Source: Candidatus Bipolaricaulota bacterium (GTDB lineage: Bacteria > Bipolaricaulota > Bipolaricaulia > Bipolaricaulales > Bipolaricaulaceae). Taken from it: a DNA stretch of 64,000 nt. The position numbers were made by a program, and so were the translations under genes. Of this stretch, positions 8,113-45,112 are shown one piece after another; within the stretch, counting starts at the first letter, position 1; each line of letters opens with the position of its first letter. The notes under the pieces were generated by a model, which saw nothing but the letters and a program-made list of their open reading frames with translations, made no database searches and was not told the origin of the DNA. The stretch is from NCBI GenBank assembly GCA_014360985.1, contig JACIWK010000002.1:51826-115825 (forward strand). The letters are read 5' to 3'.

Positions 8113-8114
8113 CC

Positions 8115-11456: not shown

Positions 11457-11473
11457 AGCGATGCGAGGTGCCC

Positions 11474-13519
11474 ATGTATAGGCTGAGCACGGATGTCGGC
11501 GGAACGTTCACTGACGGGGTACTGCTGAATGAAAACACGGGCGAGTGCCGCGTAAGTAAGGTCCTGACCACTCCCCAGGACCCCGCGATCGGGACGGTTG
11601 AAGCGATGGACCGGTTCGGCGTTCCTCTCGCCGAGGTAGAGTTCCTCGTTCACGGAACCACCGTCGTGATCAACGCTCTCATCGAAGGAAAGGGAGCGAA
11701 GACTGGACTTGTGACCACGAAGGGCTTCCGCGACGTCCTGGAGATCGGACGCGGCAATCGTACCGAGATGTACGACGCGCTGTACCGGAAACCTGTCCCG
11801 CTCGTCCCCAGGTATCTCAGGCTGGAAGTCGAGGAGAGGGTGGGACCGGGAGGCGAGATACTCACTCCGCTGCGAGAAGCAGACGTCCTCCAAGTCATCG
11901 AGTTCCTGAGATCTCAGGGCGTTGAATCGGTCGCCGTCTGTCTGTTGAATGCGTACGCCAACCCGAAACACGAAGAGGATATTGGAGAACTGCTTCGCGA
12001 ACACTGGCCCGAGGTGACGGTATCGCTTTCTCACAAGATCACACGCCGTTTCTACGAGTACGAACGCACGAGCACGGCGGTCCAGAACGCGTACGTGATG
12101 CCGCGCGTGCGCAGGTACCTGGAAAACCTGGATCGTCAAGTCGAGGGACGGGGGTTCAAGAGGAACCTCCAGATCATGCAATCAAACGGTGGGATCATGG
12201 CTTCAGTGGTTGCCCGGGAGATCCCCATCGCCATGGTGGAATCGGGCCCCGCCGCTGGCGCCATGGGTGCGGCCCATCTGGCACGGATGTCGGGATACGA
12301 GAACGTGATCTCGTACGACATGGGGGGAACTACGGCCAAGACGGCCCTCATCCGGCGGGGGTTGCCGGAGACCACGGACCAGTACCTGGTGGAGGGCCGA
12401 CCCATTCTCCTCCCCGTGGTCGACCTGCGCGAAATCGGGGCGGGTGGGGGATCCATCGCCTGGGTCGATGAGGCGGGAGCTCTGCATGTTGGACCGCAAA
12501 GTGCGGGAGCGGAACCCGGCCCGGCCTGTTACCTTCGAGGGGGAGTCGCTCCCACGGTGACCGATGCAAACCTCCACCTGGGGATCCTGAACCCGGACTA
12601 CTTCCTGGGCGGGGAAATGCAAGTGTCCCCTCAAGCCGCGCACGCTGCGCTCCGGCAGATCGCCCAGATCTTCGAGATGTCCGTCGATGAGACGGCGCTC
12701 GGCGTGATTAGGATCGTGAACACGCACATGGCTGGCCTCCTTCAGTCGATGACGATCAAAAGGGGGTACGACCCACGGGAGTTCGTGCTCGTCGCCTTCG
12801 GCGGAGCCGGCCCGATTCACGCCGCAGCGATCGCTCGGGAATTGAACATTCCCACCGTGATCGTTCCCCCCTCGCCGGGGACCTTCTCCGCATGGGGGAT
12901 GCTGATGGCCGACCTAAGACACGACCTCGTTCGCACCTACTTCGCCCCCATGGAGGAGGCCTCCCCCGCAGCGATCAACGCCATCTTCCGCGAGTTGCAG
13001 GCGCAGCTCCTTGACCTGTTCGCGCACGAGAGCGTTGCGGAACGGGACGTTGTGGTGTACCACTCGTTCGGACTCCGTTATGCAGGCCAGGAACACACCC
13101 TCGATGTCGAGGCGCCGCTCGAGTACGCTGAATCGGACAGAGAGAACATCGAGAGACGTTTCGACGACCTCCATCTCAAGATCTACGGCCACAATGCCCC
13201 TGAGGAACCGAAGGAGATCGTTTCGCTGAAGCTCGTGGGCGTGGGCACAGTGACGAAGCCGTCGCTCCTGAAGCTCCCCCGCGGAAAGAGGACTCCAGGG
13301 CGCTCCGCCATGCTCGGGCAGAGGAAGGTGTACCGCAACGGTGGGAGGCACGTGGACTTCCTGCTGTACAGACGCGCCAAGCTCCTCGCGGGAAACGTCA
13401 TCCCTGGGCCAGCGATCATTGAGGAGCCGACGGCCACGACGGTGGTGGAGGATGACCAGGTATGTTCCGTCGATGCATACGGCAATCTGGTGATCTCGAC
13501 GAAGGAGGCGGGACAGTGA
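11474..13519 (+). CDS. hyuA: HyuA: ATP-dependent hydantoinase/oxoprolinase family subunit A (copy 1)
   Basis: [75 protein letters not shown]. Confidence 0.93.
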   Translation: [681 protein letters not shown]

Positions 13520-15273
13520 GGGTTGATCCGATCACACTGGAGGTCATCCGGAATCGCCTGATCGCGGCGAGCCGGGACATCAGGAGGACCGTGGAGAGGG
13601 CTGCCTACAGCCCCGTTCTGTACGAGGTCGTTGACTTCAGCTGCGGTGTATTGGACAGCGAGGCGAACCTGCTGGCGGAGACCCCTGGCTTGCCCATCTT
13701 CCTCGCCAACCTATCCGATGCGGTCAAGGCCACCTACGAGACCATCGGTCGGGAGCAGTTGCAGCCCGGCGACATCATCCTGTGCAACGACCCGTACAAT
13801 GGGGGTGGAACCCACTGTCCGGACATCGTCGTGCTTGGCCCCGCGTTCGTTGCCAACGAGATCCGAGGGTGGGCCGCCTTTCGCGGCCACACGGTGGATA
13901 TGGGGGGCATCTACCCCGGCGGGTGGTACAGCAACACAACCGAGGTGTTTCAAGAGGGGTTCCGACTCCCCCCCGTGAAGCTGGTGGTCGCAGGCAAACC
14001 CAACGAGGACGTCTTCCGCCTCATCCGCGCCAACACCCGCGTTCCCGACGCCGTACTCGGCGACATCCGAGCCATGATCGCCGCGGTTCGTACTGGTAGC
14101 AGCCGACTCGCGGAGATCGTAAATCGTTACGGAATTGACCAGGCTCTGGCCGCCTTCCACGAGATCCTGGACCAAGGGGAGCGGATGTCGCGGGCCGCCA
14201 TCCGGCGGATCCCAAACGGTGTGTACTCGGCAGAGGCCATTCTGGACGGCGACGGCAACGACGATGCACCTCTCGACGAGGATGTTCGGCTGGTGGTGAA
14301 GGTCACCGTCGCGGAAGAGGAGATGATCATTGACTTCACGGGAACAGATCGCCAGTGTCGCGGACCAATGAACGTCCCGTTGCCCTCGACCATCTCATCG
14401 GCAAGATACGGGTTCAAGGTCGTCACGACCCCCGACCTGCCCAACAACGAGGGTTTCTTCCGCCCGCTTACAGTGATCGCCCCCAAGGGTACCCTCCTCA
14501 ACCCCGTCTTCCCCGCCGCTACAGCGATGTGGCCCACGCCGACCACAACCATCCCCGACCTGATCCTGAAAGCCCTCTCCCCTGCCATCCCTGAACGAGT
14601 CCGAGCAGGGCACTTCGGCGATTCCATGGCCGACTTCATCTACGGAACGGACCCCCGATCAGGGAGGTACTACGTGTGCGCGGAGCCCGATGGAGGTGGC
14701 TACGGGGGGATGCCCAATGAAGACGGCGCATCCGCCCTGTTTTCGATGGACCTGGGCGATACCTACAACGTCCCGGCCGAGGTGGCTGAGGTGCGGTACC
14801 CGTGGAGGGTCGAGCGCTTGGAGTTGATTCAGGACTCGGGAGGTCCCGGGAAGTTCCGCGGGGGGTTGGGGGTCCGCCGGGACTACCGGATCCTCAACCA
14901 TAAAGCGGGCCTTACGGTAACGACAGATCGAGTGCTCCGCACCCCACCGTGGGGGCTATTTGGCGGCAAGGCCGGGAAGTCGAACATCACCGTGGTGTTC
15001 CGGGGCAACGGGAGCCAAGAGCGGTGGCGCAAGGTCTCGAATCTGCCGCTGGAGCCGGGCGAGGTCGTCAGCTTCCAGACCGGGGGAGGCGGTGGATACG
15101 GCCCGCCCCTGGAGCGGGAGCCATCCCGCGTGCTCCAAGATGTGATCAACGGCTATGTCTCGCCGGCCAAGGCCCGAGAGGAGTATGGCGTCGTGCTGAA
15201 TGGGGAGGGGCAGCTCGATCTCGCGGCAACCGAGGAACTACGAAAGCGGATGTCAAGCGCGGGGGCTGCTTGA
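13516..15273 (+). CDS. hyuB: HyuB: hydantoinase B/oxoprolinase family subunit B (copy 1)
   Basis: DPITLEVIRNRLIAASRDIRRTVERAAYSPVLYEV; CNDPYNGGGTHCPDIVVLGPAF; GGGGGYGPPLERE C-term. Confidence 0.93.
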   Translation: MRVDPITLEVIRNRLIAASRDIRRTVERAAYSPVLYEVVDFSCGVLDSEANLLAETPGLPIFLANLSDAVKATYETIGREQLQPGDIILCNDPYNGGGTHCPDIVVLGPAFVANEIRGWAAFRGHTVDMGGIYPGGWYSNTTEVFQEGFRLPPVKLVVAGKPNEDVFRLIRANTRVPDAVLGDIRAMIAAVRTGSSRLAEIVNRYGIDQALAAFHEILDQGERMSRAAIRRIPNGVYSAEAILDGDGNDDAPLDEDVRLVVKVTVAEEEMIIDFTGTDRQCRGPMNVPLPSTISSARYGFKVVTTPDLPNNEGFFRPLTVIAPKGTLLNPVFPAATAMWPTPTTTIPDLILKALSPAIPERVRAGHFGDSMADFIYGTDPRSGRYYVCAEPDGGGYGGMPNEDGASALFSMDLGDTYNVPAEVAEVRYPWRVERLELIQDSGGPGKFRGGLGVRRDYRILNHKAGLTVTTDRVLRTPPWGLFGGKAGKSNITVVFRGNGSQERWRKVSNLPLEPGEVVSFQTGGGGGYGPPLEREPSRVLQDVINGYVSPAKAREEYGVVLNGEGQLDLAATEELRKRMSSAGAA

Positions 15274-15292
15274 GAACGGAAGAGGAGGAGGG

Positions 15293-15745
15293 GTGAGGTC
15301 GAGAGTTCAGTTCTCGTTCGAGCGCGGGGGAGTGGTGATCGCCGACCTGGCGCCCGATCTCGCCCCACAGACCGTCCGCTCGCTTCTCGCACTCCTTCCT
15401 CTCACCGCAACTGTCTACCACACGCGGTGGTGCGGACGTGAGATCTACCTGCCGACCACAAGCGGCGGCGAGATCCCTCGAGAGAACCAGACCGTCCAGA
15501 CGAGCACCGGCGACGTCACCTACTGGAGGGAGTGGGATAAGCCCAACTCGGTAGCTGCCGAGGCGATCTCCATCTACTACGGACCAGAGGTGGTCAGGGA
15601 TCATCGCGGGTACCTGCTGGTCAACGTGTTCGCTCGCGTTCCGCAACGACAGTGGAAGACGATCGAGGAGATAGGTCTTCGAGTCTGGCAGTGTGGGATC
15701 GAGCAGGTGAGGGTCAGCCTAGTGAGGGGGGGCCGACGGCCGTGA
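15293..15745 (+). CDS. DUF3830-like (cyclophilin-like fold) protein
   Basis: ~150 aa: TAPQTVRSLLALLPL-like N-term, YHTRWCGREIYLP, EWDKPNSVAAEAISIYYGPEVV; located between hyuB and M24 peptidase. Confidence 0.65.
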   Translation: MRSRVQFSFERGGVVIADLAPDLAPQTVRSLLALLPLTATVYHTRWCGREIYLPTTSGGEIPRENQTVQTSTGDVTYWREWDKPNSVAAEAISIYYGPEVVRDHRGYLLVNVFARVPQRQWKTIEEIGLRVWQCGIEQVRVSLVRGGRRP

Positions 15746-16845
15746 ACAAGTACCAGCTCCGGGTTCACACGATTCAGGAATCGCTGAGGGAACAGAGGGC
15801 GTCCCTGCTGGTTGTCTCGCCCGGGGCCAACATGCTCTTCTTGAGCGGTTTCTCTGACCAATCATCCGAACGCTTGCTCCTGTTCTTCCTGCCCCAGGAC
15901 GGGGATCCGTTCTTCGTTGCCCCTGAGCTCTACGCCGACCAGATCATGGCGAACTCTCCCTTTTTCCGAATCCACGCGTGGAAGGATGCAGAAGGACCGA
16001 TGCAGACTCTAGCGTGCGCCCTCGCACCCTGCAGGCAGACCGCAAGGTCCGTGCTCGTGGACGAGGGAATGAGAGCAGATTCCCTGCTATTGATCCAGGA
16101 AGCCCTTCCCCAAGCCCGATTTGCCCCCGCGTCCCCCGTTATCCGTCGGCTACGGATGCGGAAGGATCAAGAGGAGCTCTCTCTGCTGGCGGAAGCCGCC
16201 TCCATCGCCGACCACGCCCTGGCAGAGATCTCCCAACTGAGGTTCAGTGGCCTGACCGAACGCGAGCTGGCCCGAGCGCTTGAGGAGGCGATGGTCGCGG
16301 GCAGCGCAGAGGGGATTGCTTTTGAGACGTTGGTTGCCTCCGGACCCAACAGCGCGCTGCCCCATCACCGCGCGGGCCAGCGAAGGATCGAGCGGGGCGA
16401 CGTAGTCATCCTCGACTTCGGCTGTCGGGTCGGAGGGTACTGCTCCGACATCACGCGGACGGTCGTGTGCGGCGAGCCGGCGCCCGACGTCCGGGCTGCC
16501 CACCAAGTGGTTGCCGAGGCACAGGAGCAAGCAGTGCGCGCCGTCCGCCCGGGCGCAACCGCCCAGGAGATCGATCAAATCGCACGGGGAGCGATCGCGG
16601 CGGCGGGGCTGGGGGAGCGGTTCATCCATCGCACCGGCCATGGAGTGGGGCTGGATGTCCATGAGGAACCGTACATTGTGGCGGGAAACCCGCTCACGCT
16701 CGAACAAGGAATGGTGTTCACGGTGGAGCCAGGCGTCTACTTCCCTGGGCAGTTCGGCGTCCGCGTAGAGGATGTCGTGGTAGTCACCGACAGCAGCGTT
16801 CGCCGCCTGAACCGATATTCACGAGCCCTACAGATCGTGAGATGA
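15742..16845 (+). CDS. M24-family Xaa-Pro peptidase
   Basis: ALPHHRAGQRRIERGDVVILDFGCRVGGYCSDITRTV, HRTGHGVGLDVHEEPYIV, FTVEPGVYFPGQFGVRVEDVVVV metal-binding motifs. Confidence 0.94.
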   Translation: MNKYQLRVHTIQESLREQRASLLVVSPGANMLFLSGFSDQSSERLLLFFLPQDGDPFFVAPELYADQIMANSPFFRIHAWKDAEGPMQTLACALAPCRQTARSVLVDEGMRADSLLLIQEALPQARFAPASPVIRRLRMRKDQEELSLLAEAASIADHALAEISQLRFSGLTERELARALEEAMVAGSAEGIAFETLVASGPNSALPHHRAGQRRIERGDVVILDFGCRVGGYCSDITRTVVCGEPAPDVRAAHQVVAEAQEQAVRAVRPGATAQEIDQIARGAIAAAGLGERFIHRTGHGVGLDVHEEPYIVAGNPLTLEQGMVFTVEPGVYFPGQFGVRVEDVVVVTDSSVRRLNRYSRALQIVR

Positions 16846-16928
16846 CGGAAAGAGCGGGGGGTGAGAGCGACATCAATTGAGGGGATTCGGTCGGGAGAAC
16901 ACCCACAGATGGGAAAGGGGGGAGTGCG

Positions 16929-18554
16929 ATGAAAGCGCGGTTGCTTAGTGTAGCGGTGATGTTGACAGGTGTGACGCTGGGTCTGATGGGCGCCGTGGAG
17001 AATGTCGCAGTGATCAACGGTTTCCCTGTGATCACAGCTGATCCGGCCACTGCTTCAGACTGGTACGATACCGAGGTGATGTACAACCTGTACAGCCCGC
17101 TGGTGTACCCCTCGCCGGACGGAGGGGTTCGACCGCACCTGGCTGTGAGCTGGGAAGCGGTGGGGGGAGACCTCACCCACTGGCGGTTCAACTTGCGGCA
17201 AGGGGTGAAATTCCACTCGGGCAATACCCTGACTGCCGAGGATGTCGCCTTCTCCATGACCCGGTTCATCACGATGGGTCGTGGGAACTCCGGGCCCCTG
17301 GGTCAAGTTACTGCGGTTGTCGTCGACACGTACACGGTCGACTTCGTCCTGGACAAACCCAGTGCCATCTTCCCAGAGACCCTAGCCCTGTTCTTCCCCG
17401 TGGAGAAGAACCTTGTGCTCGCGAACATCAAGAAGCCAGGACCCTATGGGGATCTGGGGGACTACGGCGAGGAGTGGCTCGGCACGCACGACGCTGGAAC
17501 CGGCCCGTACATGATGACGAGCCACATCCCCGGCCAGCGGTTGGACGCCACGCGGTTCCTCGACTACTTCGAAGGATGGTCGAACGAGGGCTGGGGTCCG
17601 GATGAGGTACCGATCGAGCGACTGGTCTTCATCATGGAGACCGACTATACCACCCTGATGACGCTGCTCAGAGCTGGTATGCTGGACCTCGAGATCAACG
17701 GTGGCTGGACGTTGCCCCAGCTCCGGGAGATCCAGGAGGACAACCGCCTCCGGCTGAGCTTCTGCTGGGCTCAGAACGTGACAGTGTGGATGAACTCGAA
17801 GGTTCCGCCAACCGACGACGAGCATTTCCGAAAAGCGATCCTGTACGCTTTCGATTATGAGAGCATCCTCGGTCCGTGGGCAGAGTTCGGCAATGGAGAG
17901 ACCGGCATCATCTTGCCGAACATGCCGGGCTACGTGCCGATCGAGCCCCAGCCACGGAAGCAAGACCTGGAAAGGGCTCGCCAGGAGCTCGCTCTCTCCA
18001 AGTACGCAGCCAACCTCAGGGACGTGAAGGTCACGTTCCACTTCTGCGGAGGTCTCGACTTCGAAGAGGAGGTCGGTCTCCAATTGCAGGCGGACATGGC
18101 ACAACTTGGCGTGCGGGTCGAAGTGGCGGGTCCACCGTGGCCTCAGTACTCCGCATCCTGCTCGGCACCGGAGACAACGCCCAACCTCACGATCTTCCTC
18201 TTCGCTCCACAGGCGTTCCCGCCACATGACTACTACCTCTACTCCATGTTCTCTGCGAGCGGCTTGGGATGGATCTTCTCCGCTCACTGGTACTTCGAGG
18301 ATCCGGAGATCGCTCATCTCCTTGACGAGACCCGAGCTGAACCTGATCCAGGAAGGCGAATGGATATCTACCGGCAGTTGCAGCCCCTGATCGCGGCCCA
18401 CAGCCTAGCGTTCTATCCATACCAGAAGCCAACTCTGTTCGCCCACCAGGCTTACATCGTGGGCCCCAAGGAGAGCATCGCTTTCGTCGGTCCAAGCGAG
18501 AACATGCACAACTGGCGCATCAACCTGAAGCTCAAGCAAGAGCTGCGCGGGTAG
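16929..18554 (+). CDS. ABC transporter substrate-binding protein, family 5 (peptide/nickel-type)
   Basis: Signal-peptide-like N-term; LYSPLVYPSPDGGVRPHLAVSWEAVGGDLTHWRFNLRQGVKFHSGNTLTAEDVAFSM family-5 signature. Confidence 0.94.
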   Translation: MKARLLSVAVMLTGVTLGLMGAVENVAVINGFPVITADPATASDWYDTEVMYNLYSPLVYPSPDGGVRPHLAVSWEAVGGDLTHWRFNLRQGVKFHSGNTLTAEDVAFSMTRFITMGRGNSGPLGQVTAVVVDTYTVDFVLDKPSAIFPETLALFFPVEKNLVLANIKKPGPYGDLGDYGEEWLGTHDAGTGPYMMTSHIPGQRLDATRFLDYFEGWSNEGWGPDEVPIERLVFIMETDYTTLMTLLRAGMLDLEINGGWTLPQLREIQEDNRLRLSFCWAQNVTVWMNSKVPPTDDEHFRKAILYAFDYESILGPWAEFGNGETGIILPNMPGYVPIEPQPRKQDLERARQELALSKYAANLRDVKVTFHFCGGLDFEEEVGLQLQADMAQLGVRVEVAGPPWPQYSASCSAPETTPNLTIFLFAPQAFPPHDYYLYSMFSASGLGWIFSAHWYFEDPEIAHLLDETRAEPDPGRRMDIYRQLQPLIAAHSLAFYPYQKPTLFAHQAYIVGPKESIAFVGPSENMHNWRINLKLKQELRG

Positions 18555-18564
18555 ATGGGAAGGG

Positions 18565-18597
18565 GGGAGGGCGAGGACGGAACGCCCTCGCCCTCCC
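18565..18597 (+). promoter_or_regulatory. Intercistronic 12-bp hairpin between SBP and permease genes
   Basis: GGGAGGGCGAGG-acggaacgc-CCTCGCCCTCCC perfect stem; no T-run follows. Confidence 0.7.
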
Positions 18598-18624
18598 GGG
18601 CCCCAAGGAGCGGCTGAGGATAGG

Positions 18625-19644
18625 ATGGCCAAGTTCATCGGGCAGAGATTGGCGCAATCGCTCTTCGTCCTGTTCGGACTCTCGCTGTTGATCTTCTTCA
18701 TCGCGAGGGTCGTGCCGGGCGATCCAGCTCGAGCGGCGTTGGGGTTCCTCGCTACGCAGGACCAGGTAGAGAAGATGAGGGCGGAGATGCACCTGGACAA
18801 GCCTTTCGTCGTCCAGTACTATTATTGGTTCACGGGGCTTCTGCGAGGGGACCTTGGCAAGTCATCGTACACCCACAGGCCGGTCACAACAGATCTGGGC
18901 CAGTTCATCCCAGCAACGCTCGAGTTGATCCTGTTCGCGACCCTGATCTCGCTGACCGTGGGACAAGTGACGGGGGTGCTGGCGGGGTATTTTCGCAATT
19001 CCTGGTTCGATGGGCTTTCTCGGCTCATCTCCTACCTCGGCATTGCCACTCCGTCCTTCGTCGTCGCGATCCTCCTGATTTTCGTCTTCAGCCAGCTCTT
19101 GCGTCTCGCACCGAGCGTCGGCCGCCTCCCGATCATGGTGGCCCCGCCTCCCACGGTGACCGGTTTCATGGTCCTCGACGCGCTGATCGCCGGGCGGGTC
19201 GAGGTGGCGCTTGTCGCCTTGAAACACCTCCTCCTCCCCGCGGTCAGCCTGGCGCTCATCCACATCGCGCAGGAAGGTCGGATCACCCGCACCTCGATCG
19301 TGGAGAACCTCGACAAGGACTACATCACGATGCACAAGGTACACGGCATCCGCACCTCTCGGCTCGTCTTCAAGTACCTCCTGCGGCCATCCATCATCCC
19401 CACGGTGGCGGTGATAGGGCTTGATTTCGCCTTTCTCATGTCCAACGCCTTCCTCGTGGAGCTCGTTTTCATGTGGCCTGGATTCGCTCGGTACGCTGTA
19501 ACGACCATGCTCAACAAGGATCTCAATGCCATGGTCGCGGTCGTGCTGGTCATCGGCGTGACCTTCGCGATGGTGAACCTTCTGGTTGACATCCTGATTA
19601 CGTTCCTGGATCCCACGATCCGCATCCAACGGAGAGGAGGATAG
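18625..19644 (+). CDS. ABC transporter permease (DppB/OppB type)
   Basis: MAKFIGQRLAQSLFVLFGLSLLIFFIARVVPGDPARAALG; HKVHGIRTSRLVFKYLLRPSIIP EAA-type loop. Confidence 0.94.
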   Translation: MAKFIGQRLAQSLFVLFGLSLLIFFIARVVPGDPARAALGFLATQDQVEKMRAEMHLDKPFVVQYYYWFTGLLRGDLGKSSYTHRPVTTDLGQFIPATLELILFATLISLTVGQVTGVLAGYFRNSWFDGLSRLISYLGIATPSFVVAILLIFVFSQLLRLAPSVGRLPIMVAPPPTVTGFMVLDALIAGRVEVALVALKHLLLPAVSLALIHIAQEGRITRTSIVENLDKDYITMHKVHGIRTSRLVFKYLLRPSIIPTVAVIGLDFAFLMSNAFLVELVFMWPGFARYAVTTMLNKDLNAMVAVVLVIGVTFAMVNLLVDILITFLDPTIRIQRRGG

Positions 19645-19646
19645 GG

Positions 19647-20543
19647 ATGTGGCAAGAGAGGAAGGCGGATCTTGTCGCCACCATGAAGCTAAGGAGGCAG
19701 TCACTGGCCAAGGGGTGGTACAAGTACTCACGGAACCCTCTCTCCGTGCTGGGGCTGATCGTGTTGGTGCTCATTGGAACAAGTGCGGGCTTGGCCCCCT
19801 ACATCACCCCCTACCCCGCCCACGCCGGAGCGTTCACCAACTTCAGGGAGGCCGGACAACCACCGAGTTGGAAGCACCTCTTTGGAACCGACAGGATCGG
19901 TCGGGACGTGTTCACCCGCGTGATCTTCGGCTACCGGTTCTCCCTCCTCCTGGGAGTGGTTGTTCTAAGTCTGGGTGTGGCTCCCGGGGTGGTGCTGGGC
20001 CTCATCGCCGGTTATCGCCGCGGCACGTGGGTTGAAATCGTGATCATGCGCATCACGGATGTGTTCCTCGCCGTGCCCCCCCTTGTCCTTGCCCTCGCAA
20101 TCACGGCGATGCTGACTCCGAACCTGCTGAACGCGATGTTCGCCATCGCCCTTCTCTGGTGGCCTTGGTACTGCCGTCTCGTCTTCGCCGTCGCATCGTC
20201 GTTGCGCAACCAGTTCTTCGTCCGAGAGGCAGAGCTCTGCGGCGCAAGTCGAGCGCACATCCTGTTCCGGGAGATCCTCCCCAATTGTGTCGCGCCGATC
20301 CTCACGAAGATGACCCTGGACATGGGGATCGTGATCCTCCTCGGAGCCTCGCTCAGCTTCGTGGGATTAGGAGCGCAGCCCCCCACGCCATGCCTCGGCA
20401 CGATGGTCGCTGACGGAGCAAAGCGGTTGCCTGGCGAGTGGTGGAGCACGATCTTCCCCGCGCTTGCGATCGTGCTCGTCATCCTCGCCTTCAACCTCGT
20501 GGGGGACGGCCTCCGGGACGTGTTCGCCGTGGAGGAGGTGTAG
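19647..20543 (+). CDS. ABC transporter permease (DppC/OppC type)
   Basis: PPSWKHLFGTDRIGRDVFTRVIFGYRFSLLLGVV; REAELCGASRAHILFREILPNCVAPILT. Confidence 0.94.
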   Translation: MWQERKADLVATMKLRRQSLAKGWYKYSRNPLSVLGLIVLVLIGTSAGLAPYITPYPAHAGAFTNFREAGQPPSWKHLFGTDRIGRDVFTRVIFGYRFSLLLGVVVLSLGVAPGVVLGLIAGYRRGTWVEIVIMRITDVFLAVPPLVLALAITAMLTPNLLNAMFAIALLWWPWYCRLVFAVASSLRNQFFVREAELCGASRAHILFREILPNCVAPILTKMTLDMGIVILLGASLSFVGLGAQPPTPCLGTMVADGAKRLPGEWWSTIFPALAIVLVILAFNLVGDGLRDVFAVEEV

Positions 20544-20546
20544 GAC

Positions 20547-21527
20547 GTGGCACTCCTCGAGGTGGTGGACCTCCACGTCGGCTACCGTGTGTTCGAGGGC
20601 TACCTGAAGGTCCTGAACGGCGTGAACTTCGAGATCGAAGAGCAGGAAAGGGTGGGGCTCGTGGGGGAGACAGGCTGCGGCAAAACGACCCTGGTGAAGA
20701 CGATCCTCCGCGTGCTGCCAGTGCCTCCAGCGCGCATCCAGCGGGGACAAGTCCTCTACCATGGCAAGGACATCTTGCTGATGTCACCGCGCGAGGTCCG
20801 TGGCCTGCGCCGGCGCGAGATGACGGCCATTTTCCAGGACCCGCTGCAGGCGTTGAACCCGATGTTCACCATCGGGACCCAGCTGCGGGACATTCTGAAG
20901 GATTCCCAGGAGCGGGTAGGCCGTGGGCAACGCACCCAACGGGCCATCACCGCTCGCTGCATCTCGGCGCTCCGCGATACAGGTATGCCCGACCCGGAAA
21001 GGATCATGTCGAACTACCCGATCCAGTTGAGCGGCGGCATGCGCCAACGCGTATGCATTGCGGAGGCGTTGTCGCGGAATGTAAGGCTGCTGCTGGCCGA
21101 TGAGCCGACGACCAACCTTGACGTCACAATACAAGATCAGATCCTGCGAAAGCTCGATCAGCTCGTCGACCAGCGAGGGGCATCGGTGCTGATCATCACC
21201 CATTCCATGGGGGTCGTGCGCGACCTCACTCAGCGCCTGTATATTATGTACGCAGGATCTATGGTGGAGACTGGAAGGACGAAAGGCGTTCTGGCTTCCC
21301 CCTTGCACCCGTACACCCAGGGGCTGATGAGGAGCGTACCGCGCCTCACCGGACAGGGGATCAGCGACGGGATCCCAGGACGGATCCCCAATTACCTTCA
21401 ACCCCCGTCAGGCTGTCGTTTCCACCCGCGCTGCGCGCACGCGATGCCCGTGTGTGTGGAGGCGCCACCACCGTTCTATCCGGCAGGGGATAACCACCGT
21501 GTGGCCTGCTACTTGTACCGGAGTTGA
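20547..21527 (+). CDS. ABC transporter ATP-binding protein (DppD/OppD type)
   Basis: GLVGETGCGKTTLVKTILR Walker A; YPIQLSGGMRQRVCIAEALSRNVRLLLADEPTTNLDVTIQ; CRFHPRCAHAMPVC C-term. Confidence 0.95.
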   Translation: MALLEVVDLHVGYRVFEGYLKVLNGVNFEIEEQERVGLVGETGCGKTTLVKTILRVLPVPPARIQRGQVLYHGKDILLMSPREVRGLRRREMTAIFQDPLQALNPMFTIGTQLRDILKDSQERVGRGQRTQRAITARCISALRDTGMPDPERIMSNYPIQLSGGMRQRVCIAEALSRNVRLLLADEPTTNLDVTIQDQILRKLDQLVDQRGASVLIITHSMGVVRDLTQRLYIMYAGSMVETGRTKGVLASPLHPYTQGLMRSVPRLTGQGISDGIPGRIPNYLQPPSGCRFHPRCAHAMPVCVEAPPPFYPAGDNHRVACYLYRS

Positions 21528-21532
21528 GAGCG

Positions 21533-22555
21533 ATGCCCGGAGACATCCTGAGCGTGGACAACCTCCGGAAGCACTTCCCCACGAAGGAGGGTGTTGTCCG
21601 GGCGGTGGACGGTGTCAGCTTCTCGATAGCACCCGGCGAGACGTTCGGCCTGGTCGGTGAGTCGGGCTCAGGGAAGACAACGACGGCCCAGTGTATCATC
21701 GGGATGTATCCTCCCACTTCGGGTGATATCTGGTTCAAAGGCGAGCGCATCAACGCGGCGTTCGACCGGCGACCGAAGCATGTGAAGGGAGATCTGCGGA
21801 TCGTCTTCCAGGATCCCGGTTCTTCCCTCAACCCCAAACGAACGATCAAGCAGATCCTCTCTGTTCCGCTACAGGTCCATCGCATCGGGTCAAGACGCGG
21901 CCGCCTCGCCCGCATGAAGGCTCTGCTGGACATGGTCGAGTTGCCGGCAGACGAGTACCTGTACAAGCATCCTCAGGCAATCGGCGGTGGAGAGAGACAG
22001 ATGGTCGCACTGGCCAGAGCGCTGGCCACCAACCCATCCCTCGTTCTGTTGGACGAACCGACCTCGGCGTTGGATGTCTCCGTGCAGGCGAAGATCATCA
22101 ACCTACTCATCCGCCTCCAGAAGGAACTGGATCTCACCTATCTCTTCATCACCCACGATCTGTCGCTGATGCGGAACATCGCCACTCGCGTGGCGATCAT
22201 GTATCTCGGGAAGCTTTGCGAGATCGCACCGACAGCCGAGTTCTTCGAGTCCCCGGTCCATCCATACACGAGGATGCTTCTTTCCTCGATACCGGTTGTA
22301 TCGGACGAGGAGGAAGCGCTCAAACCTCGGAAGGTGCTCTCGACCGGAGAGATTCCCAGTCCAGTCAATGTGCCCCCGGGATGTGGTTTCCAGTCCCGTT
22401 GCCCCGAGGCAGCGGACGTATGCCGACGGGTCGACCCAGAGATGGTGGAGGTCAGCCGATCCCACCAAGTCCGCTGTCATCGGGAAAGACGACCGGATCG
22501 TGCTGGCCACGCCGAGGCTTCGGTCTTACACGAGCGGGAGGAGCGCCTGTGCTGA
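21533..22555 (+). CDS. ABC transporter ATP-binding protein (DppF/OppF type)
   Basis: GLVGESGSGKTTTAQCIIGMYPPTSGDI; QAIGGGERQMVALARALATNPSLVLLDEPTSALDVSVQ; CGFQSRCPEAADVCR. Confidence 0.95.
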   Translation: MPGDILSVDNLRKHFPTKEGVVRAVDGVSFSIAPGETFGLVGESGSGKTTTAQCIIGMYPPTSGDIWFKGERINAAFDRRPKHVKGDLRIVFQDPGSSLNPKRTIKQILSVPLQVHRIGSRRGRLARMKALLDMVELPADEYLYKHPQAIGGGERQMVALARALATNPSLVLLDEPTSALDVSVQAKIINLLIRLQKELDLTYLFITHDLSLMRNIATRVAIMYLGKLCEIAPTAEFFESPVHPYTRMLLSSIPVVSDEEEALKPRKVLSTGEIPSPVNVPPGCGFQSRCPEAADVCRRVDPEMVEVSRSHQVRCHRERRPDRAGHAEASVLHEREERLC

Positions 22556-23364
22556 CCGACGCCCACGTGCACCTGGACCGGTACTTGCCGGCGGAGGTCC
22601 CGCGCGTGCTCGACCGAGCCCGCGCTGCAGGCGTCGAGTGGATGGTCACCGTGGGGATGGATCCCCCATCCTCGGAGAAGGCAGTTGGGTTGGCCCACAC
22701 CCATGGCGGCGTTCTCGCCGCCGTGGGCGTTCATCCGTGGATGGTGCCAGCAGATCTCCCTCCCGATGCCGCGGACGCTATCCACGCGCTCTCCACCGCA
22801 TCAGGCGTTGTGGCCATTGGCGAGGTGGGCCTCGACTTCGTGGAGAACCTGTTCCTGGGGATCGACCACCGGCCGGACCCATCGTCCCGGCAAGCGCAAG
22901 AGGCTGCGTTCCGCAGGCAACTCGAGATCGCTGTCGACCTCGGCCTTCCCCTCAATGTCCATTGCCGCGGGGCCTATCCCCAGCTCGTTGCCATCCTGGC
23001 CGAGGCGAGACCCGCCCGATGCAGGGGGGTCGTCCACAACTTCGACGGCGACACCCAGGCGCTGCGCAGCCTCCTCGACCTCGGGTTCTACGTGTCCTTC
23101 GGGGGGGCCCTCACCTACCCCGGCGCCGCGGCGTTGAGGCGGGTTGCCAGGGTTGTCCCCCTGGATGCCGTGTTGATCGAGACGGATGCTCCGTACATGC
23201 CCCTGCACGGCGATCCCGCGCAGAGCAACGAACCCGCGAATGTCTCCGCAATCGCACGAGCGCTGGCACAGGTGAGGAAGGTCGAAGATGACGTCGTGAT
23301 CGAGGCGAGCTACCATAACTTCGTGACCCTGTTCGAACCAGAGTCCACGTGCCATGTCAAGTAG
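22549..23364 (+). CDS. TatD-like metal-dependent hydrolase (second copy in window)
   Basis: LTDAHVHLDRY, VGVHPWMVP, IGEVGLDFVE, LNVHCRGAY, IETDAPYMPLHG; GTG start overlaps upstream stop. Confidence 0.85.
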   Translation: MLTDAHVHLDRYLPAEVPRVLDRARAAGVEWMVTVGMDPPSSEKAVGLAHTHGGVLAAVGVHPWMVPADLPPDAADAIHALSTASGVVAIGEVGLDFVENLFLGIDHRPDPSSRQAQEAAFRRQLEIAVDLGLPLNVHCRGAYPQLVAILAEARPARCRGVVHNFDGDTQALRSLLDLGFYVSFGGALTYPGAAALRRVARVVPLDAVLIETDAPYMPLHGDPAQSNEPANVSAIARALAQVRKVEDDVVIEASYHNFVTLFEPESTCHVK

Positions 23365-24343
23365 GTGCTCGACTGGATCATCGTGCATCGCGCGTCGCGC
23401 CCCGCAGGACGGTGGGCGCACGGGTGCCGCTCTTCCTGCAGTGGGCATCGTGTTCGATATCAAGCGGTACACGATCCACGATGGTCCGGGGATTCGAACC
23501 ACCGTGTTTCTGAAGGGATGCCCGCTGCGCTGCCTGTGGTGCCACAATCCGGAAGGGGTTGATCCGCAGCCCCAGGTGTCGTTCGTGGCAGGGCGTTGTC
23601 TCGGCTGCGGCGCGTGCGTCGAGGCCTGTCCCGAACGGGCCATTTCCCTTGCACCGGGTGCGTTGCCGATGACGGACCGCGCGAAGTGCGTGGCTTGCGG
23701 CCGGTGCGTGGCCGCTTGCCCCGCGGGCGCGCGGGCCCTTGTCGGGAAGGGCCGCTCCGTGGAAGAGGTTCTGGCACTCGTCGAACGCGACCGCATCTTC
23801 TACGACCGATCCGGAGGCGGAGTCACCTTCTCTGGCGGGGAGCCGCTGGCTCAGCCGCAGTTCCTCCGCGCGTGCCTCCGTGAGTGCCGCGCGCGCGGCA
23901 TCCGCACGGCTGTCGATACGTCGGGCTTCGCCGATCGCGCGCTCGTGATGGAGATCGCCGCGCTCGCGGATCTCCTGCTCTACGACCTCAAGGACATGAA
24001 CCCGTCTCGGCATCTGAGGACCGTGGGTGTGCCTCTGGAGCCGATCCTGGCGAATCTTGAGGCCCTCGCCCAGGCGGGGGCTCCGGTGTGGGTCAGGATC
24101 CCCGTGATTCCAGGAGTCAACGATGACGCTGCCACCATCCAGGACTACCTGAGCTACCTTGCTGGGCTGGAAGTTCGCTACCCCGTGTCGCTCCTGCCCT
24201 ATCATACCATCGGGGTGGAGAAGTACAGGCGGCTGGGGATCCCGTATCGCCTGCCGGAGACGAGGCCCCCTTCTCAGCAGGCCCTGGAGGGGTTCGTCCG
24301 GATGTTCGAGAGAGCAGGGTTCGAGATAGACGTAGGGAGGTGA
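23354..24343 (+). CDS. Glycyl-radical enzyme activating protein (radical SAM, PflA-like); GTG 23441 is an alternative start
   Basis: IVFDIKRYTIHDGPGIRTTVFLKGCPLRCLWCHNPEG with CxxxCxxC; two extra [4Fe-4S] motifs CLGCGACVEACP and CVACGRCVAACP. Confidence 0.93.
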   Translation: MSSRCSTGSSCIARRAPQDGGRTGAALPAVGIVFDIKRYTIHDGPGIRTTVFLKGCPLRCLWCHNPEGVDPQPQVSFVAGRCLGCGACVEACPERAISLAPGALPMTDRAKCVACGRCVAACPAGARALVGKGRSVEEVLALVERDRIFYDRSGGGVTFSGGEPLAQPQFLRACLRECRARGIRTAVDTSGFADRALVMEIAALADLLLYDLKDMNPSRHLRTVGVPLEPILANLEALAQAGAPVWVRIPVIPGVNDDAATIQDYLSYLAGLEVRYPVSLLPYHTIGVEKYRRLGIPYRLPETRPPSQQALEGFVRMFERAGFEIDVGR

Positions 24344-24348
24344 GACCG

Positions 24349-26709
24349 ATGACGGAACGGGTGAGCAGGCTGAGAGCGCAGTCCTTCGAGGCACGGCCGT
24401 GCGTGTCCGCCGAGAGAGCCACGATCATGACCCGGTTCTACCGGGAGAACCTGGGCAAGCACCCGCCACCGATCCTGCGGGCGCTTGCTTTCCGGGAGCT
24501 GTGCGCGCGCCAGACGATCTACATCGGCGAGGAGGAGCTCATCGTTGGAGAGCGGGGGCCAAAGCCGATGGCCGTTCCCACCTACCCTGAACTCACCTGT
24601 CACTCCCTGGACGACCTCGAAGTGCTGAACACGCGGGAGAAGAACCAATACATCGTCTCCGATGAGGTGTTCGCGATCTACCGTGACGAGATCATCCCGT
24701 TCTGGCGCGGCCGCTCCATCCGCGATCGGAACTTCGCTGAGCTGCCCGAGGACTGGCTGGATGCTTACCAGGCCGGAGTGTTCACCGAGTTCATGGAGCA
24801 ACGCGCCCCAGGGCACACAGCGGGGGATGGGAAGCTCTTCCAGAGGGGACTCCTTGACGTCCGGCGCGAGATCCGCAACCAGCTGGCGGCCCTCGATCTC
24901 GCCTCCGATCCCCACGGTTGGGAAAAGCGAGCCGAGCTCGTGGCGATGGATATCGCAGCGGAGGCGATGGTCTCGTTCGCGAAGAGGCACGCGGAGCTCG
25001 CCCGGGAGCTGGCTGCCCGTGCGCCAGACGAGAATCGTCGCCGGGAGCTGCTGGTGATCGCAGAGACATGCGAGCGGGTCCCCGCCCATCCGCCCCGAAC
25101 ATTCCGGGAGGCCGTCCAGGCCTACTGGTTCTACCATCTTGGTGTGATCATTGAGCTGAACGGCTGGGATGCGTTCAATCCCGGACACCTCGACCAACAC
25201 CTTTACCCCTTCTACCAGCGCGACCTGGAAGCGGGAATCCTCACCCGCGACGAAGCTGCGGAGATCCTCGGCTGCCTCTGGGTCAAGTTCAACAATCACC
25301 CCGCTCCGCCCAAGGTCGGGGTAACCGCCGCCGAGAGCGGAACCTACAACGACTTCGTCAACATCAACCTCGGCGGGCTCCGACCCGATGGAAGCGATGG
25401 CTCGAACGAGCTGTCGTACCTCATCCTCGAGGTCGCCGATGAGCTCCACCTCCGCCAGCCACAGTGCAACGTCCAGCTCTCGCGGGTGACCCCGGACCGA
25501 CTTCTCGAAGCAGCGTGCCGCATCCTGAGGCGCGGGTACGGGTACCCCGCCCTGTTCAATGCGGATGCAGTCGTAGAGGAACTGCTCCGGCAGGGGAAGT
25601 CCGTCGAGGACGCGAGGGAAGGTGGCACGAGCGGTTGCGTGGAGAGCGGGGCGTTCGGGAAGGAGGCCTACATCCTGTCCGGGTACTTCAACCTGCCCAA
25701 GGTCCTGGAGATCACCCTCAACGACGGCGTCGATCCCCGAACGGGCAAGCGGATCGGCCCTTCCACCGGCGATCCGAGAGGGTTCTCATCGTTCGACATG
25801 TTGCTCGCAGCTTGGGAACGACAGCTTCGTCATTTCGTAGATGTCAAGATCCGGGGGAACTCCGTCGTTCAGTCCCTCTACGCTTCCGAAATGCCCGCGC
25901 CCTTCCTGTCGCTCCTGATCGACGACTGCATCAAGAAAGGCAGGGACTACAACGCCGGCGGTGCTCGCTACAACACAACGTACATTCAGGGCGTCGGCAT
26001 CGGGACCCTCACCGATAGCCTCTCCGCGATCCTGCACCATGTCTACGAGCGGAGAGCAGTTGGCATGGATACCCTTCTGCAGGCGCTACAGAAGGATTTC
26101 CACGGAGCAGAGGTCTTGCGGCAGGAGCTTCTCAACAAGACGCCGCGATACGGCAACGACGATGACCGAGCCGATCGCCTCATGCAGTGGGCCTTCGAGG
26201 CCTTCTTCCGCGCGGTGGAGGGGCGACCGGCTCCCCGTGGGGGAAAGTACCACATTGACATGTTGCCCACGACGTGCCACATCTACTTCGGGACAGTGAC
26301 AGGAGCGACGCCGGACGGGCGACGAGCAGGGCAACCCCTCTCCGAGGGCATCTCCCCCGTTCAAGGGCGGGATGCGGAAGGACCGACGGCGGTGATCAGG
26401 TCCGCCGCCAAGCTCGACCACATCAAAACTGGGGGGACCCTCCTCAACATGAAGTTCTCGCCCCAGGTCCTGGCCAACGATGCGGATCTCCGGAAGTTCG
26501 CCCAGCTCGTCCGCAGCTACTTCGCCCTGGGGGGACACCACGTCCAGTTCAACGTGGTCAGCGCCCAAGTGCTCAAGGACGCGCAAGCCCGTCCCGAGGA
26601 GTACCGCGGACTGCTCGTGCGGGTCGCTGGGTACAGCGACTACTTCTGCGATCTCTCGCGGGCCCTCCAGGATGAAATCATCGCGCGCACCGAACATGGC
26701 GCCCCCTGA
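24349..26709 (+). CDS. Glycyl radical enzyme, HypD-like (candidate trans-4-hydroxy-L-proline dehydratase)
   Basis: Thiyl loop GGTSGCVESGAFGKEAYILSGYFNLPKVLEITLNDG; C-terminal glycyl motif VRVAGYSDYFCDLSRALQDEIIARTEH; NGWDAFNPGHLDQHLYPFY; adjacent activase. Confidence 0.85.
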   Translation: MTERVSRLRAQSFEARPCVSAERATIMTRFYRENLGKHPPPILRALAFRELCARQTIYIGEEELIVGERGPKPMAVPTYPELTCHSLDDLEVLNTREKNQYIVSDEVFAIYRDEIIPFWRGRSIRDRNFAELPEDWLDAYQAGVFTEFMEQRAPGHTAGDGKLFQRGLLDVRREIRNQLAALDLASDPHGWEKRAELVAMDIAAEAMVSFAKRHAELARELAARAPDENRRRELLVIAETCERVPAHPPRTFREAVQAYWFYHLGVIIELNGWDAFNPGHLDQHLYPFYQRDLEAGILTRDEAAEILGCLWVKFNNHPAPPKVGVTAAESGTYNDFVNINLGGLRPDGSDGSNELSYLILEVADELHLRQPQCNVQLSRVTPDRLLEAACRILRRGYGYPALFNADAVVEELLRQGKSVEDAREGGTSGCVESGAFGKEAYILSGYFNLPKVLEITLNDGVDPRTGKRIGPSTGDPRGFSSFDMLLAAWERQLRHFVDVKIRGNSVVQSLYASEMPAPFLSLLIDDCIKKGRDYNAGGARYNTTYIQGVGIGTLTDSLSAILHHVYERRAVGMDTLLQALQKDFHGAEVLRQELLNKTPRYGNDDDRADRLMQWAFEAFFRAVEGRPAPRGGKYHIDMLPTTCHIYFGTVTGATPDGRRAGQPLSEGISPVQGRDAEGPTAVIRSAAKLDHIKTGGTLLNMKFSPQVLANDADLRKFAQLVRSYFALGGHHVQFNVVSAQVLKDAQARPEEYRGLLVRVAGYSDYFCDLSRALQDEIIARTEHGAP

Positions 26710-26854
26710 GCAACCGATCCCGCTCCATGACAGGCGCCCACCTCACGGCGTCGGGACACGAACTGGGTGCCGACGCGGAACGGAGCTAGTCCAGAGCCGT
26801 CTGGGCGCGACACGGACCACTTCCTAGGCACGGTTCAAGGGGGAGGCGATGTAG

Positions 26855-28912
26855 ATGGGAAGGCGGGTAGCAGTCGACATCGGCGGAACGTTCACGGATC
26901 TCGTTGCCATAGATGACGCGACAGGGGCGGTGGTCCTCGGAAAGGCGTTGACAACGCCCCGGAACTTCGCAGATGGGGTGGCCCAAACGATCTCCCAGAG
27001 CGGCATTGATCCCCAAGATGTCAGTCACTTCGTCCACGGGACCACGGTGGTGATCAATGCCCTCACGGAGCGAAGCGGTGCCCGGGTCGCCCTGATTACG
27101 ACCCGTGGCTTCCGCGACATCCTGGAGATCCAGCGCGCTAACCGGCCCGACATGTACAACCTGTTCTACCGCAAACCACGTCCGTTCGTCCCCCGTCGGT
27201 TCCGGTTCGAGGTGCGGGAACGCCTGAACTACCGGGGGGTCGTACTCGAACCCCTGGTGGAAGCCGACGTGGTCACCGCCGTGGAGACGTGCAAGAAGGC
27301 GGGGATCGAGGCCATCGCCGTGTGCTATATCCATGCCTACGCCAATCCGGCCCATGAACGACGGACAAAGGAGATCATCCGCGAGCTCTGGCCCGAGGTA
27401 CCGGTCACTGCTTCCCACGAGATCACGCAGGAATGGCGCGAATACGAGCGCACGAACACTGCAGTCCTGAACGCCTATGTGCAGCCTTCGACGGCGTCCT
27501 ACTTATCGGCATTGGACCTCCGGCTGTCCGAGATGGCCATGCCCGCCCAGAGGTACGCGATGCAGTCGAACGGCGGAACAGCGACGTTCGCTGAGGCGCA
27601 GCGGATCCCCATTCGCCTGGTCGAGTCCGGGCCCGTGGGAGGGGTGATCGGGGCCGCCCTGGTGTCCCGGGTATTAGGGGAGGGCTCAGCCATTGCCTTC
27701 GATATGGGAGGGACCACCGCCAAAGTAAGCTTGATCGAACGGGGCCGGCTTAAGACCACCACCGACTACCACCTGGAGCGGACGGGGGCGTGGGCTGGCT
27801 ACCCACTGAAGATCCCGGTGGTGGACATCGTTGAGGTAGGTGCGGGTGGGGGCTCCATCGCGTGGATCGATGAGGGAGGTGCCCTGAACGTGGGGCCGCG
27901 TAGCGCAGGCGCCGACCCTGGTCCAGCCTGCTACGGCCTGGGAGGAGCGGAGCCGACGGTTACGGACGCCAACTTGCTCACGGGGCGCCTCAACCCGCGG
28001 TACTTCCTCGGCGGAAGGATGCGTTTGGACGTGGCCCGGGCGGAGGCCTCCATCCGGCGGATCGCGGATCGGTACCGACTTTCCCCGCTGGAAGGCGCGT
28101 TGGGCATCCTCCGTCTCGCCAATGCCAACATGAGAGCCGCCCTGGAGCGGGTGAGCATCGAGCGTGGTTACGACCCGCGGGACTTCGCGCTGGTGGCCTA
28201 TGGTGGAGCGGGGGGGCTGCACGGACCGACCTTGGCCCAGGAACTCCGGATGAAGAAGGTGATCATCCCCCGTGCTCCGGGCCAGTTCTCAGCGTGGGGG
28301 ATGCTGATGACGGACATCCGGCACGATTTCGTGCGGACCCACGTGATGCCCTGCGACGATCGTCAGGCCGACGAGATCGTCCGCGTGCTGGGCGAGCTGG
28401 AAGCGGAGGCCGTCGGCCGCTTCGCATCCGAAGGCTTCTCCCTGGACAGGGTAACGATCGTGGCCTCCCTCGATCTGCGATACAAGGGGCAAGAACATAC
28501 GGTCCAGACTCCAATCTCCCCGGATGCCGTCTCCGCTCGCCGCCTCACCCGCGTCATCGCTGACTTCCACACGCTCCATGAGCAGGCCTATTCGTTCCGA
28601 CTAGACGACCCCGTGGAGATCGTCAACTTCCACATCGTGGGTTGGGGGAAGGTGGACAAGCCTGCACTGGAGATCATCGCCGACCGAGGAGGGCCCCCCC
28701 ACCGAGCGCTCAAGGAGGAGCGCTCCATCCTCTTCGAGGGCGCTGGCCCAGTGAGGGCTGCGGTCTACGAAAGGGAGCTGCTCGCCAGCGGCGCACACCT
28801 TCATGGCCCCGCCATCGTGGAGGAGCCAGCCTGCACCACTGTGGTCTGCCCTGGTCAGGAACTGTCAGTGGACCACTACGGCAACCTGGTGATCACGGAG
28901 GTTGAACGATGA
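26855..28912 (+). CDS. hyuA: HyuA: ATP-dependent hydantoinase/oxoprolinase family subunit A (copy 2)
   Basis: AVDIGGTFTDLVAIDD, HGTTVVINALTERSGARVALITTRGFRDILEIQRANRPDMYN, AFDMGGTTAKVSLIERG. Confidence 0.93.
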   Translation: MGRRVAVDIGGTFTDLVAIDDATGAVVLGKALTTPRNFADGVAQTISQSGIDPQDVSHFVHGTTVVINALTERSGARVALITTRGFRDILEIQRANRPDMYNLFYRKPRPFVPRRFRFEVRERLNYRGVVLEPLVEADVVTAVETCKKAGIEAIAVCYIHAYANPAHERRTKEIIRELWPEVPVTASHEITQEWREYERTNTAVLNAYVQPSTASYLSALDLRLSEMAMPAQRYAMQSNGGTATFAEAQRIPIRLVESGPVGGVIGAALVSRVLGEGSAIAFDMGGTTAKVSLIERGRLKTTTDYHLERTGAWAGYPLKIPVVDIVEVGAGGGSIAWIDEGGALNVGPRSAGADPGPACYGLGGAEPTVTDANLLTGRLNPRYFLGGRMRLDVARAEASIRRIADRYRLSPLEGALGILRLANANMRAALERVSIERGYDPRDFALVAYGGAGGLHGPTLAQELRMKKVIIPRAPGQFSAWGMLMTDIRHDFVRTHVMPCDDRQADEIVRVLGELEAEAVGRFASEGFSLDRVTIVASLDLRYKGQEHTVQTPISPDAVSARRLTRVIADFHTLHEQAYSFRLDDPVEIVNFHIVGWGKVDKPALEIIADRGGPPHRALKEERSILFEGAGPVRAAVYERELLASGAHLHGPAIVEEPACTTVVCPGQELSVDHYGNLVITEVER

Positions 28913-30780
28913 TGAGCGGATGCACGATCGATCCTTTCACCGTAGAGGTGATCAAGCGGGCTATCATCTCAGCGGCGGAACAAATGTTCGCTATGCTGGG
29001 ACGGACTGCGAAGAGTTCCGTGATCTACGAAGTCCTCGATTATGGTTGTGCGATCACCGACGCCAAGGGCCGGATGGTGGCGCAGGCCAACGGCGTTCCC
29101 CCGTTCATCGGCGTGCTCACCGATGCCGTCCAAGATGTCCTCCACAAGTTCGGGCTGGATGGACTCAGCGAGGGGGATGTGATCATCCTCAATGACCCCT
29201 ACATGGGTGGAGCCACGCATCCGAACGACGCGGTGCTGGTCATGCCGGTATTCTATGGGGGACAGCCGATCATGTTCGCGGCGAACAAGGCCCACTGGAA
29301 CGACGTCGGCGGCAAGGACCCCGGAAGCTGGTCCCCCAGTGCCACTGAAGTCTACCAGGAAGGGATTCTGTTGCCGGCTGTTAAGTTGTACGAAGGAGGG
29401 AAGGAATCCGCGGCTATCGTGGACATCCTCGCGCGAAATAGCCGGATCCCCGAGATGACGCTGGGGGACATGCGCGCCCAGGCCGCCTCCCTCCACGTGG
29501 CAGCGCGAAGGATCGTCCAGGTCTGTGACAAGTACGGGGTTCACGATGTGCTCGAGGCGATCGAGGTCTATCTCGAGCAGGGTCGCCGTGAGGCCCTCGC
29601 CCAGCTCAAAGCACTGCCCAAGGGCGAGTTCGCTGCCGAGGAGTACATCGACGACGATGGCTTGGGGGGAGAACCTGTGCTGATCAAGGTGAAGGTGACC
29701 ATCACCGATGAGGAGTTCGTCATCGATTACACCGGAAGTGGCAAGACATGCAACGGACCGATCAACACGCCGCTCTCCGCTCTGATGAGCACGGCCAAGC
29801 TCGCCTACAAGGCGATCGTCTCCCCGCACGGGATCGCTAACGATGGCCTGTTCTCCCCGCTGCGGGTGATCGTCCCCGAGGACACGGTATTCAACCCCAA
29901 GCCCCCGGCGCCAGTGAGTACGTACTGGGAGTCGGCCAGTTACGCGGGGGACATCGTGTGGAAGGCCCTGGCAGACGTGATCCCGGAGCGCGTCCCCGCT
30001 GGGCACTTTTTGAGCGTGTGCGGCACCATCGTCAGTGGGATCGATGACGCAACCGGCGAGTGGTTCTTCTCCGTAGAACCCAATGCGGGCGGATGGGGAG
30101 CGGGCAGAGGGAAGGATGGGGAGAGCGGGCTCGTCTGCTCTGGGGACGGGGAGACCTACGTGCTATCGGTCGAGGTGGCGGAGACCCGCTATCCTCTGAT
30201 CGTTGACCAATACGCACTCAACATCGCCAATGGCGGTCACGGTCAGTGGAGGGGAGGATTCGGGTTGGTGAAGGATTACCGGATCACGAACGCCAGAGCC
30301 TACATCACCGCCAGTTTCGGCCGCAACCGATTCCCGCCGTGGGGACTTGCGGGCGGCATGTGCGGGACACCCAACGAGGTGGAGCTTCGACTGGCCAACG
30401 GTTCGGTTGAGCGACGGGGGAGGTTCTCCAACCGCGAGCTCATGCGGGGCGATGTGGTCCGGTTCATCACCGGTACCGGAGGGGGGTACGGTGACCCCAG
30501 GCGCCGCGACCCCGAGGCGGTGTTGGCTGACGTTCTGGACGGGTACTTGTCTGCAGAGACAGCACGCGACGTGTATGGCGTGGCCATCACCGGAGATCCT
30601 CCGCGCGTCGATCGTGCAGGGACTCAACAGCTCCGTGGCAGTTCAGATGATCCGGAGAGCCGTCAGGTCGGGCACGACCACGTCAGCGATGGGTGCGAGT
30701 TCCTCCTCCCCCCCAAGCCCCGTAAGCACACCGATCGTGAGCTGGCAGCCCGCGGCGCGCCCGGCGAGGAGGTCGCCTGA
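28909..30780 (+). CDS. hyuB: HyuB: hydantoinase B/oxoprolinase family subunit B (copy 2), C-term extended into convergent gene
   Basis: DPFTVEVIKRAIISAAEQMFAMLGRTAKSSVIYEVLDYGCAI; NDPYMGGATHPNDAVLV; homology with copy 1 appears to end near nt 30636. Confidence 0.9.
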   Translation: MMSGCTIDPFTVEVIKRAIISAAEQMFAMLGRTAKSSVIYEVLDYGCAITDAKGRMVAQANGVPPFIGVLTDAVQDVLHKFGLDGLSEGDVIILNDPYMGGATHPNDAVLVMPVFYGGQPIMFAANKAHWNDVGGKDPGSWSPSATEVYQEGILLPAVKLYEGGKESAAIVDILARNSRIPEMTLGDMRAQAASLHVAARRIVQVCDKYGVHDVLEAIEVYLEQGRREALAQLKALPKGEFAAEEYIDDDGLGGEPVLIKVKVTITDEEFVIDYTGSGKTCNGPINTPLSALMSTAKLAYKAIVSPHGIANDGLFSPLRVIVPEDTVFNPKPPAPVSTYWESASYAGDIVWKALADVIPERVPAGHFLSVCGTIVSGIDDATGEWFFSVEPNAGGWGAGRGKDGESGLVCSGDGETYVLSVEVAETRYPLIVDQYALNIANGGHGQWRGGFGLVKDYRITNARAYITASFGRNRFPPWGLAGGMCGTPNEVELRLANGSVERRGRFSNRELMRGDVVRFITGTGGGYGDPRRRDPEAVLADVLDGYLSAETARDVYGVAITGDPPRVDRAGTQQLRGSSDDPESRQVGHDHVSDGCEFLLPPKPRKHTDRELAARGAPGEEVA

Positions 30781-44581: not shown

Positions 44582-45101
44582 GATCCGGCTGGCATCGGTG
44601 TGGCTCTCCGGGTGCTCGGGGTGCCACATGTCGTTTCTCGACCTCGACGAGCGGCTGATCGAGCTGGCGAGCAAGGCCGATCTCGTGCACTCCCCGATCG
44701 TGGACAGCAAGGAGTACCCCGAGGACGTGGATGTGGTCCTCGTCGAGGGGGCGGTGGGGAACACCGAGCAACGTCACCTCCTCGAGGAGATCCGGGGGAA
44801 GACGAAGATCCTCGTCGCGTTCGGGGACTGCGCCGTCACGGGCAATGTGCCCTCGCTGCGCAACCCGCTCCTCCGCGAGGAGGTGCTGCGGGCGGTGTAC
44901 GGCGAGGGGGACATCCCTGGGCTGGAGGAGGGGGACGTCCCCGCGCTCCTCCCCCAGGCGCTCCCCCTGCACAGCGTGGTCAGGGTGGACCGGTTCCTGC
45001 CCGGCTGCCCGCCGTCCGCGGACCGGATCTGGAGGTTCATCGAGGCGCTCCTCGCCGGCAAGAGGCCCGAACTGACGGGCGCGGACCTCCGCTTCGGGTG
45101 A
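44574..45101 (+). CDS. hoxY: [NiFe] hydrogenase small subunit (HoxY/HydS)
   Basis: [50 protein letters not shown]. Confidence 0.94.
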
Positions 45102-45112
45102 AAGGGGGGACG

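Follow-up and report, generated by a model that had tools for sequence, protein, structure and literature searches.

The gene at positions 24349–26709 (+ strand) of the window, the whole stretch of 64,000 nucleotides that was analyzed from a Candidatus Bipolaricaulota genome, very probably encodes an authentic HypD, the glycyl radical enzyme (GRE) predicted to serve as a trans-4-hydroxy-L-proline dehydratase. Judged by its sequence, the protein is a HypD of the ordinary kind, from a phylum that has received little study. The open reading frame is intact from the ATG at 24349 to the stop codon at 26709, codes for 786 amino acids, and has a Shine-Dalgarno-like sequence, AGGGAGGTGAG, as a strong match just 5' of the ATG. 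No other PFL-like match was identified in the 1.56 Mb assembly. The protein bears both hallmarks of the GRE eliminases, namely a Cys-X-Glu thiyl loop (Cys430-Val431-Glu432, 25636–25644, + strand; C434-V435-E436 of C. difficile HypD) with the thiyl Cys430 located within GGTSGCVESGAFGKEAYILSGYFNLPK, and a C-terminal RVAGYS-type glycyl radical motif with Gly761 (26629–26631, + strand; Gly765 of C. difficile HypD) located within VRVAGYSDYFCDLSRALQDEIIARTEH. Both motifs had been quoted in the preliminary description as placing the protein among the dehydratase-type GREs, and both were found in it.

The preliminary label of a HypD-like GRE is borne out by profile scores, the nearest solved structure, a tree and the catalytic and substrate residues. 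Against the HypD equivalog model NF043068, the protein scored 1226.7 bits (cut-off 1100, E = 0), while the second-best model was a broad subfamily model at 695 bits and the nearest other characterized type, (2S)-3-sulfopropanediol dehydratase, reached 556 bits against a cut-off of 1000. NF043068 stayed below its cut-off in all three control genomes with other GREs. A search against the PDB identified C. difficile HypD (6vxc, 1036 bits, E = 0), followed by glycerol dehydratase (540 bits) and HplG (416 bits). A GRE phylogeny had been proposed as a check; in a quick tree with glycerol dehydratase as the single other GRE, C. difficile HypD nested among the homologs of the window protein and glycerol dehydratase fell outside. 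The C-V-E loop and the fold are shared with glycerol/propanediol dehydratase, CutC, IslA, sulfopropanediol dehydratase and HplG, but the chance that the protein is one of these enzymes is negligible: no characterized type exceeds roughly half of the score for HypD, and the protein keeps Ser334, a position occupied by Phe in GD, CutC, PD and IslA (PMC7077986).

Structural and mutational work on C. difficile HypD has defined which residues take part in the binding and turnover of hydroxyproline (Hyp), with Asp278 and Asp339 being specific to HypD (PMC7077986). In an alignment to the C. difficile enzyme, all 14 residues tested were kept in the window protein (F152, R156, H160, W277, D278, K326, S334, D339, F340, C434, E436, Y450, T645 and G765, C. 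difficile numbering), so that none of the substrate residues, whose loss had been named as grounds for doubt, is missing. Twelve of the 14 are invariant across 80 homologs; G765 is present in 78, the other two having alignment gaps, and E436 is altered in one. Seven other HypDs from the bacterial family of the host retain all 14, whereas the co-aligned glycerol dehydratase keeps merely H160, C434, E436 and G765.

It had also been remarked that, relative to the characterized HypD, a Ser follows the CVE and an Ala replaces a nearby Cys. These differences are real, the loop reading CVETGCFG in C. difficile and CVESGAFG in the window protein (T437 to S, C439 to A). At position 439, however, 75 of the 80 homologs have Ala and one has Cys, so that the C. 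difficile Cys is the rare state, and at position 437 the residue changes freely (Thr in 43, Val in 21, Ala in 12, Ser in three and Ile in one). The loop difference is therefore uninformative with respect to the substrate, and its use as a diagnostic variant was ruled out as normal family variation. A separate irregularity was seen in a HypD homolog labeled Bathyarchaeota (L071:1977-4328), where the loop reads CVTISAFG and the catalytic Glu is missing; either the enzyme itself is altered, or the sequence contains a sequencing error or a local error in the frame.

The closest homologs are those of Acetothermia bacterium 64_32 (77% identity) and Desulfovirgula thermocuniculi (72%). Within the family of the host, HypD was found above the NF043068 cut-off in 11 of 40 genomes. 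From the host's genus, 11 further genomes were examined and none reached the cut-off. The distribution is patchy, and both transfer and loss are possible. In Acetothermia 64_32 (L098:12364-14395), HypD is directly followed by a PF05544 protein and then by a gene of the OCD family, which is the family of pyrroline-2-carboxylate reductase. The PF05544 protein carries MCGHG and SPTGTG, a Cys/Thr pair as described for trans-3-hydroxyproline dehydratase (PMC4113996). The names trans-3-Hyp-dehydratase-type and OCD-type follow from this signature and from best matches, as neither NCBIfam score reaches its equivalog cut-off (the PF05544 protein has 394.7, with 540 required). Relatives of both genes lie within 10 kb of HypD at two further loci (L018 and L019), and a PF05544-type gene alone at another (L026). 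In Acetothermia 64_32, genes for the degradation of 3-Hyp and of 4-Hyp are apparently combined in one cluster, and the presence of 3-Hyp-type genes beside HypD in relatives supports hydroxyproline as the pathway of the lineage.

The name HypD is shared by two unrelated genes, the GRE and a hydrogenase maturation factor, which presents an annotation trap. In one genus of the family (g6; L107, L108, L111 and L114), the GRE gene lies near a hydrogenase-maturation hypD (PF01924), accompanied in L107 by a HypE-like (AIRS) gene; proC was not found above cut-off in these genomes. The window itself contains a hydrogenase large-subunit-like reading frame at 44600–46537. Its best model, the F420-non-reducing hydrogenase VhuA, gives 372 bits without reaching the cut-off, and there is a weak similarity to VhuU close to the C-terminus.

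Genes on the + strand from 11468 to 30780, which may form an operon, are arranged in the order HyuA1-HyuB1-PepQ-like-OppABCDF-TatD-like-activase-HypD-HyuA2-HyuB2. The activase (23354–24343) is a radical-SAM glycyl radical activating enzyme with a CX3CX2C motif and two ferredoxin-type cluster motifs, and its gene ends five bases before the ATG of HypD, directly 5' of it; the two genes adjoin in most homologous loci. It scored 353 bits against TIGR02494 (cut-off 174) and 349.8 bits against its own equivalog NF043069, under the cut-off of 425, as does the activase of the 77% relative Acetothermia 64_32 (333). Since homology begins near residue 31, translation may really start at a more internal codon, for example the GTG at 23441. 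Upstream lies a gene for a TatD-like metal-dependent hydrolase (22540–23364, + strand), with a provisional start; the order OppF-TatD-HypAE-HypD is kept in the homologous locus L036. A second TatD-like hydrolase is encoded at 7815–8882, while the former copy sits inside the peptide/HypD island.

An Xaa-Pro peptidase had been reported as adjacent to HypD. The gene is present (15652–16845, + strand) but lies approximately 7.5 kb upstream, with an oppABCDF-like transporter, the TatD-like gene and the activase in between, and its product, an M24-family peptidase, is PepQ-like (Xaa-Pro dipeptidase-like) at most, with 224.7 bits against the NF040821 cut-off of 630. The OppA, B, C, D and F-like peptide ABC transporter spans 16929–22555 (+ strand). 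In a related genome of the family (G001), the HyuAB1-PepQ-Opp block is found at 58–81% identity (58% for the PepQ-like orthologue and 65–73% for the Opp set), and HypAE-HypD occur about 7.5 kb further along the same contig.

The two HyuAB pairs, hydantoinase/oxoprolinase/caprolactamase-like ATP-dependent amidohydrolases, had been taken as a hint of another ring substrate. HyuA1/HyuB1 (11468–15273, + strand) belongs to the conserved Opp island, and HyuA2/HyuB2 (26855–30780, + strand) begins 145 bp downstream of HypD; at locus L012 the pair lies ahead of the GRE genes, in the order HyuAB2-HypAE-HypD. In G001 and G034, the HyuA2/HyuB2 orthologs (71–80%) are found in front of a separate Opp set, and orthologs of HyuB2 (80–81%) occur in two genomes without HypD (G028 and G038). 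As the HyuAB orthologs accompany Opp sets whether HypD is present or absent, they are therefore companions of peptide transporters and not of the GRE, and as a pointer to another substrate they were ruled out. It is accordingly very unlikely that a HypD-fold enzyme has shifted to another cyclic substrate, such as a Hyp isomer, hydroxypipecolate, or a hydroxylated lactam or hydantoin that HyuAB would provide. While the flanking HyuAB pairs, a genome in which proC was not found, and a loop unlike that of C. difficile at 437 and 439 could be cited for such a shift, the substrate-contacting residues are all unchanged, HypDs in general show free variation at the loop positions, the nearest homolog lies within an apparent 3-hydroxyproline gene cluster, and the HypD model scores far above any other GRE model.

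With trans-4-hydroxy-L-proline as the probable substrate, a mechanism may be proposed by analogy with the characterized enzyme. Hyp, an amino acid of collagen, would probably be imported as small peptides via the Opp transporter and released by the PepQ-like peptidase. The adjacent activase would install a radical on Gly761, from which it would move to Cys430. The Cys430 thiyl would abstract a hydrogen atom from C5 of the substrate, and Asp274, Glu432, His156 and Asp335 would drive the loss of the C4 hydroxyl as water to give (S)-delta-1-pyrroline-5-carboxylate (P5C).

In Clostridiales, a P5C reductase whose gene lies close to HypD turns P5C into proline (PMC7077986). In contrast, proC had been noted as missing from the island, which is correct and extends to the whole assembly (94% complete), in which a profile search recognized none. 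The only match, at 19.8 bits against a cut-off of 196.75, lies on contig C22 and was judged foreign, being on a short contig of about 40% GC as compared to 67% for the window. ProC was detected at none of the 80 homologous loci, using one Acetothermia ProC as the query, with 50 loci of at least 12 kb, a search that a distant ProC could escape. A full HypD is encoded in 11 genomes of the family, and in seven of these no proC exceeded the cut-off; six of the seven belong to a single genus. Ornithine cyclodeaminase, proline racemase family members and a ProA/P5C-dehydrogenase-type aldehyde dehydrogenase were likewise not found in the window genome. Its sole aldehyde dehydrogenase, on contig C26 (41% GC), was also judged foreign since it resides on a short, low-GC contig and matches a methanogen-type lactaldehyde dehydrogenase model. 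C22 and C26 (L097 and L095), which carry a photolyase-like gene and the lactaldehyde dehydrogenase, are probably contamination. A class III aminotransferase (L096) was considered as an ornithine aminotransferase; however, it resembles a GABA transaminase, both by model score (529.5 bits, cut-off 506.65) and by its best PDB matches, and so offers no clear P5C route.

Since the assembly is 94% complete, a P5C-consuming gene may be among the missing part. A ProC-free route is a doubtful proposal: glutamate semialdehyde might be oxidized to glutamate by one of the three AFOR-family (tungsten-type) oxidoreductases of the genome, or a 5-oxoproline-like intermediate might be opened by the adjacent HyuAB. 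If true, hydroxyproline would be fermented with a gain of energy by a route other than the Stickland/proline scheme.

With the predicted HypD, radical-based hydroxyproline degradation would reach into a phylum that branches deeply and is largely uncultured. The enzyme also suggests that collagen-like peptides are broken down in many anaerobic habitats beyond the gut. A small puzzle is left, with no recognizable P5C consumer in the window genome and no proC in a related HypD-bearing genus.

Three known systems provide a comparison. Glycerol dehydratase (PDB: 1R8W/1R9D) has in common the GRE eliminase fold, the CXE loop and the glycyl radical domain, but is 37% identical and is without the Hyp-binding residues. 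Acetothermia 64_32 HypD (L002/L098) is far closer, at 77% identity, with an activase directly 5' and the HyuAB1-PepQ-Opp island on the same contig; unlike the window genome, it also has trans-3-Hyp-dehydratase-type and OCD-type genes and proC. C. difficile HypD (PDB: 6VXC/6VXE; Backman et al. 2020, PMC7077986) differs at the two loop positions and in the P5C reductase encoded nearby, yet it is 55% identical over its full length, has a dedicated activase, and shares every catalytic and substrate residue with the window protein.
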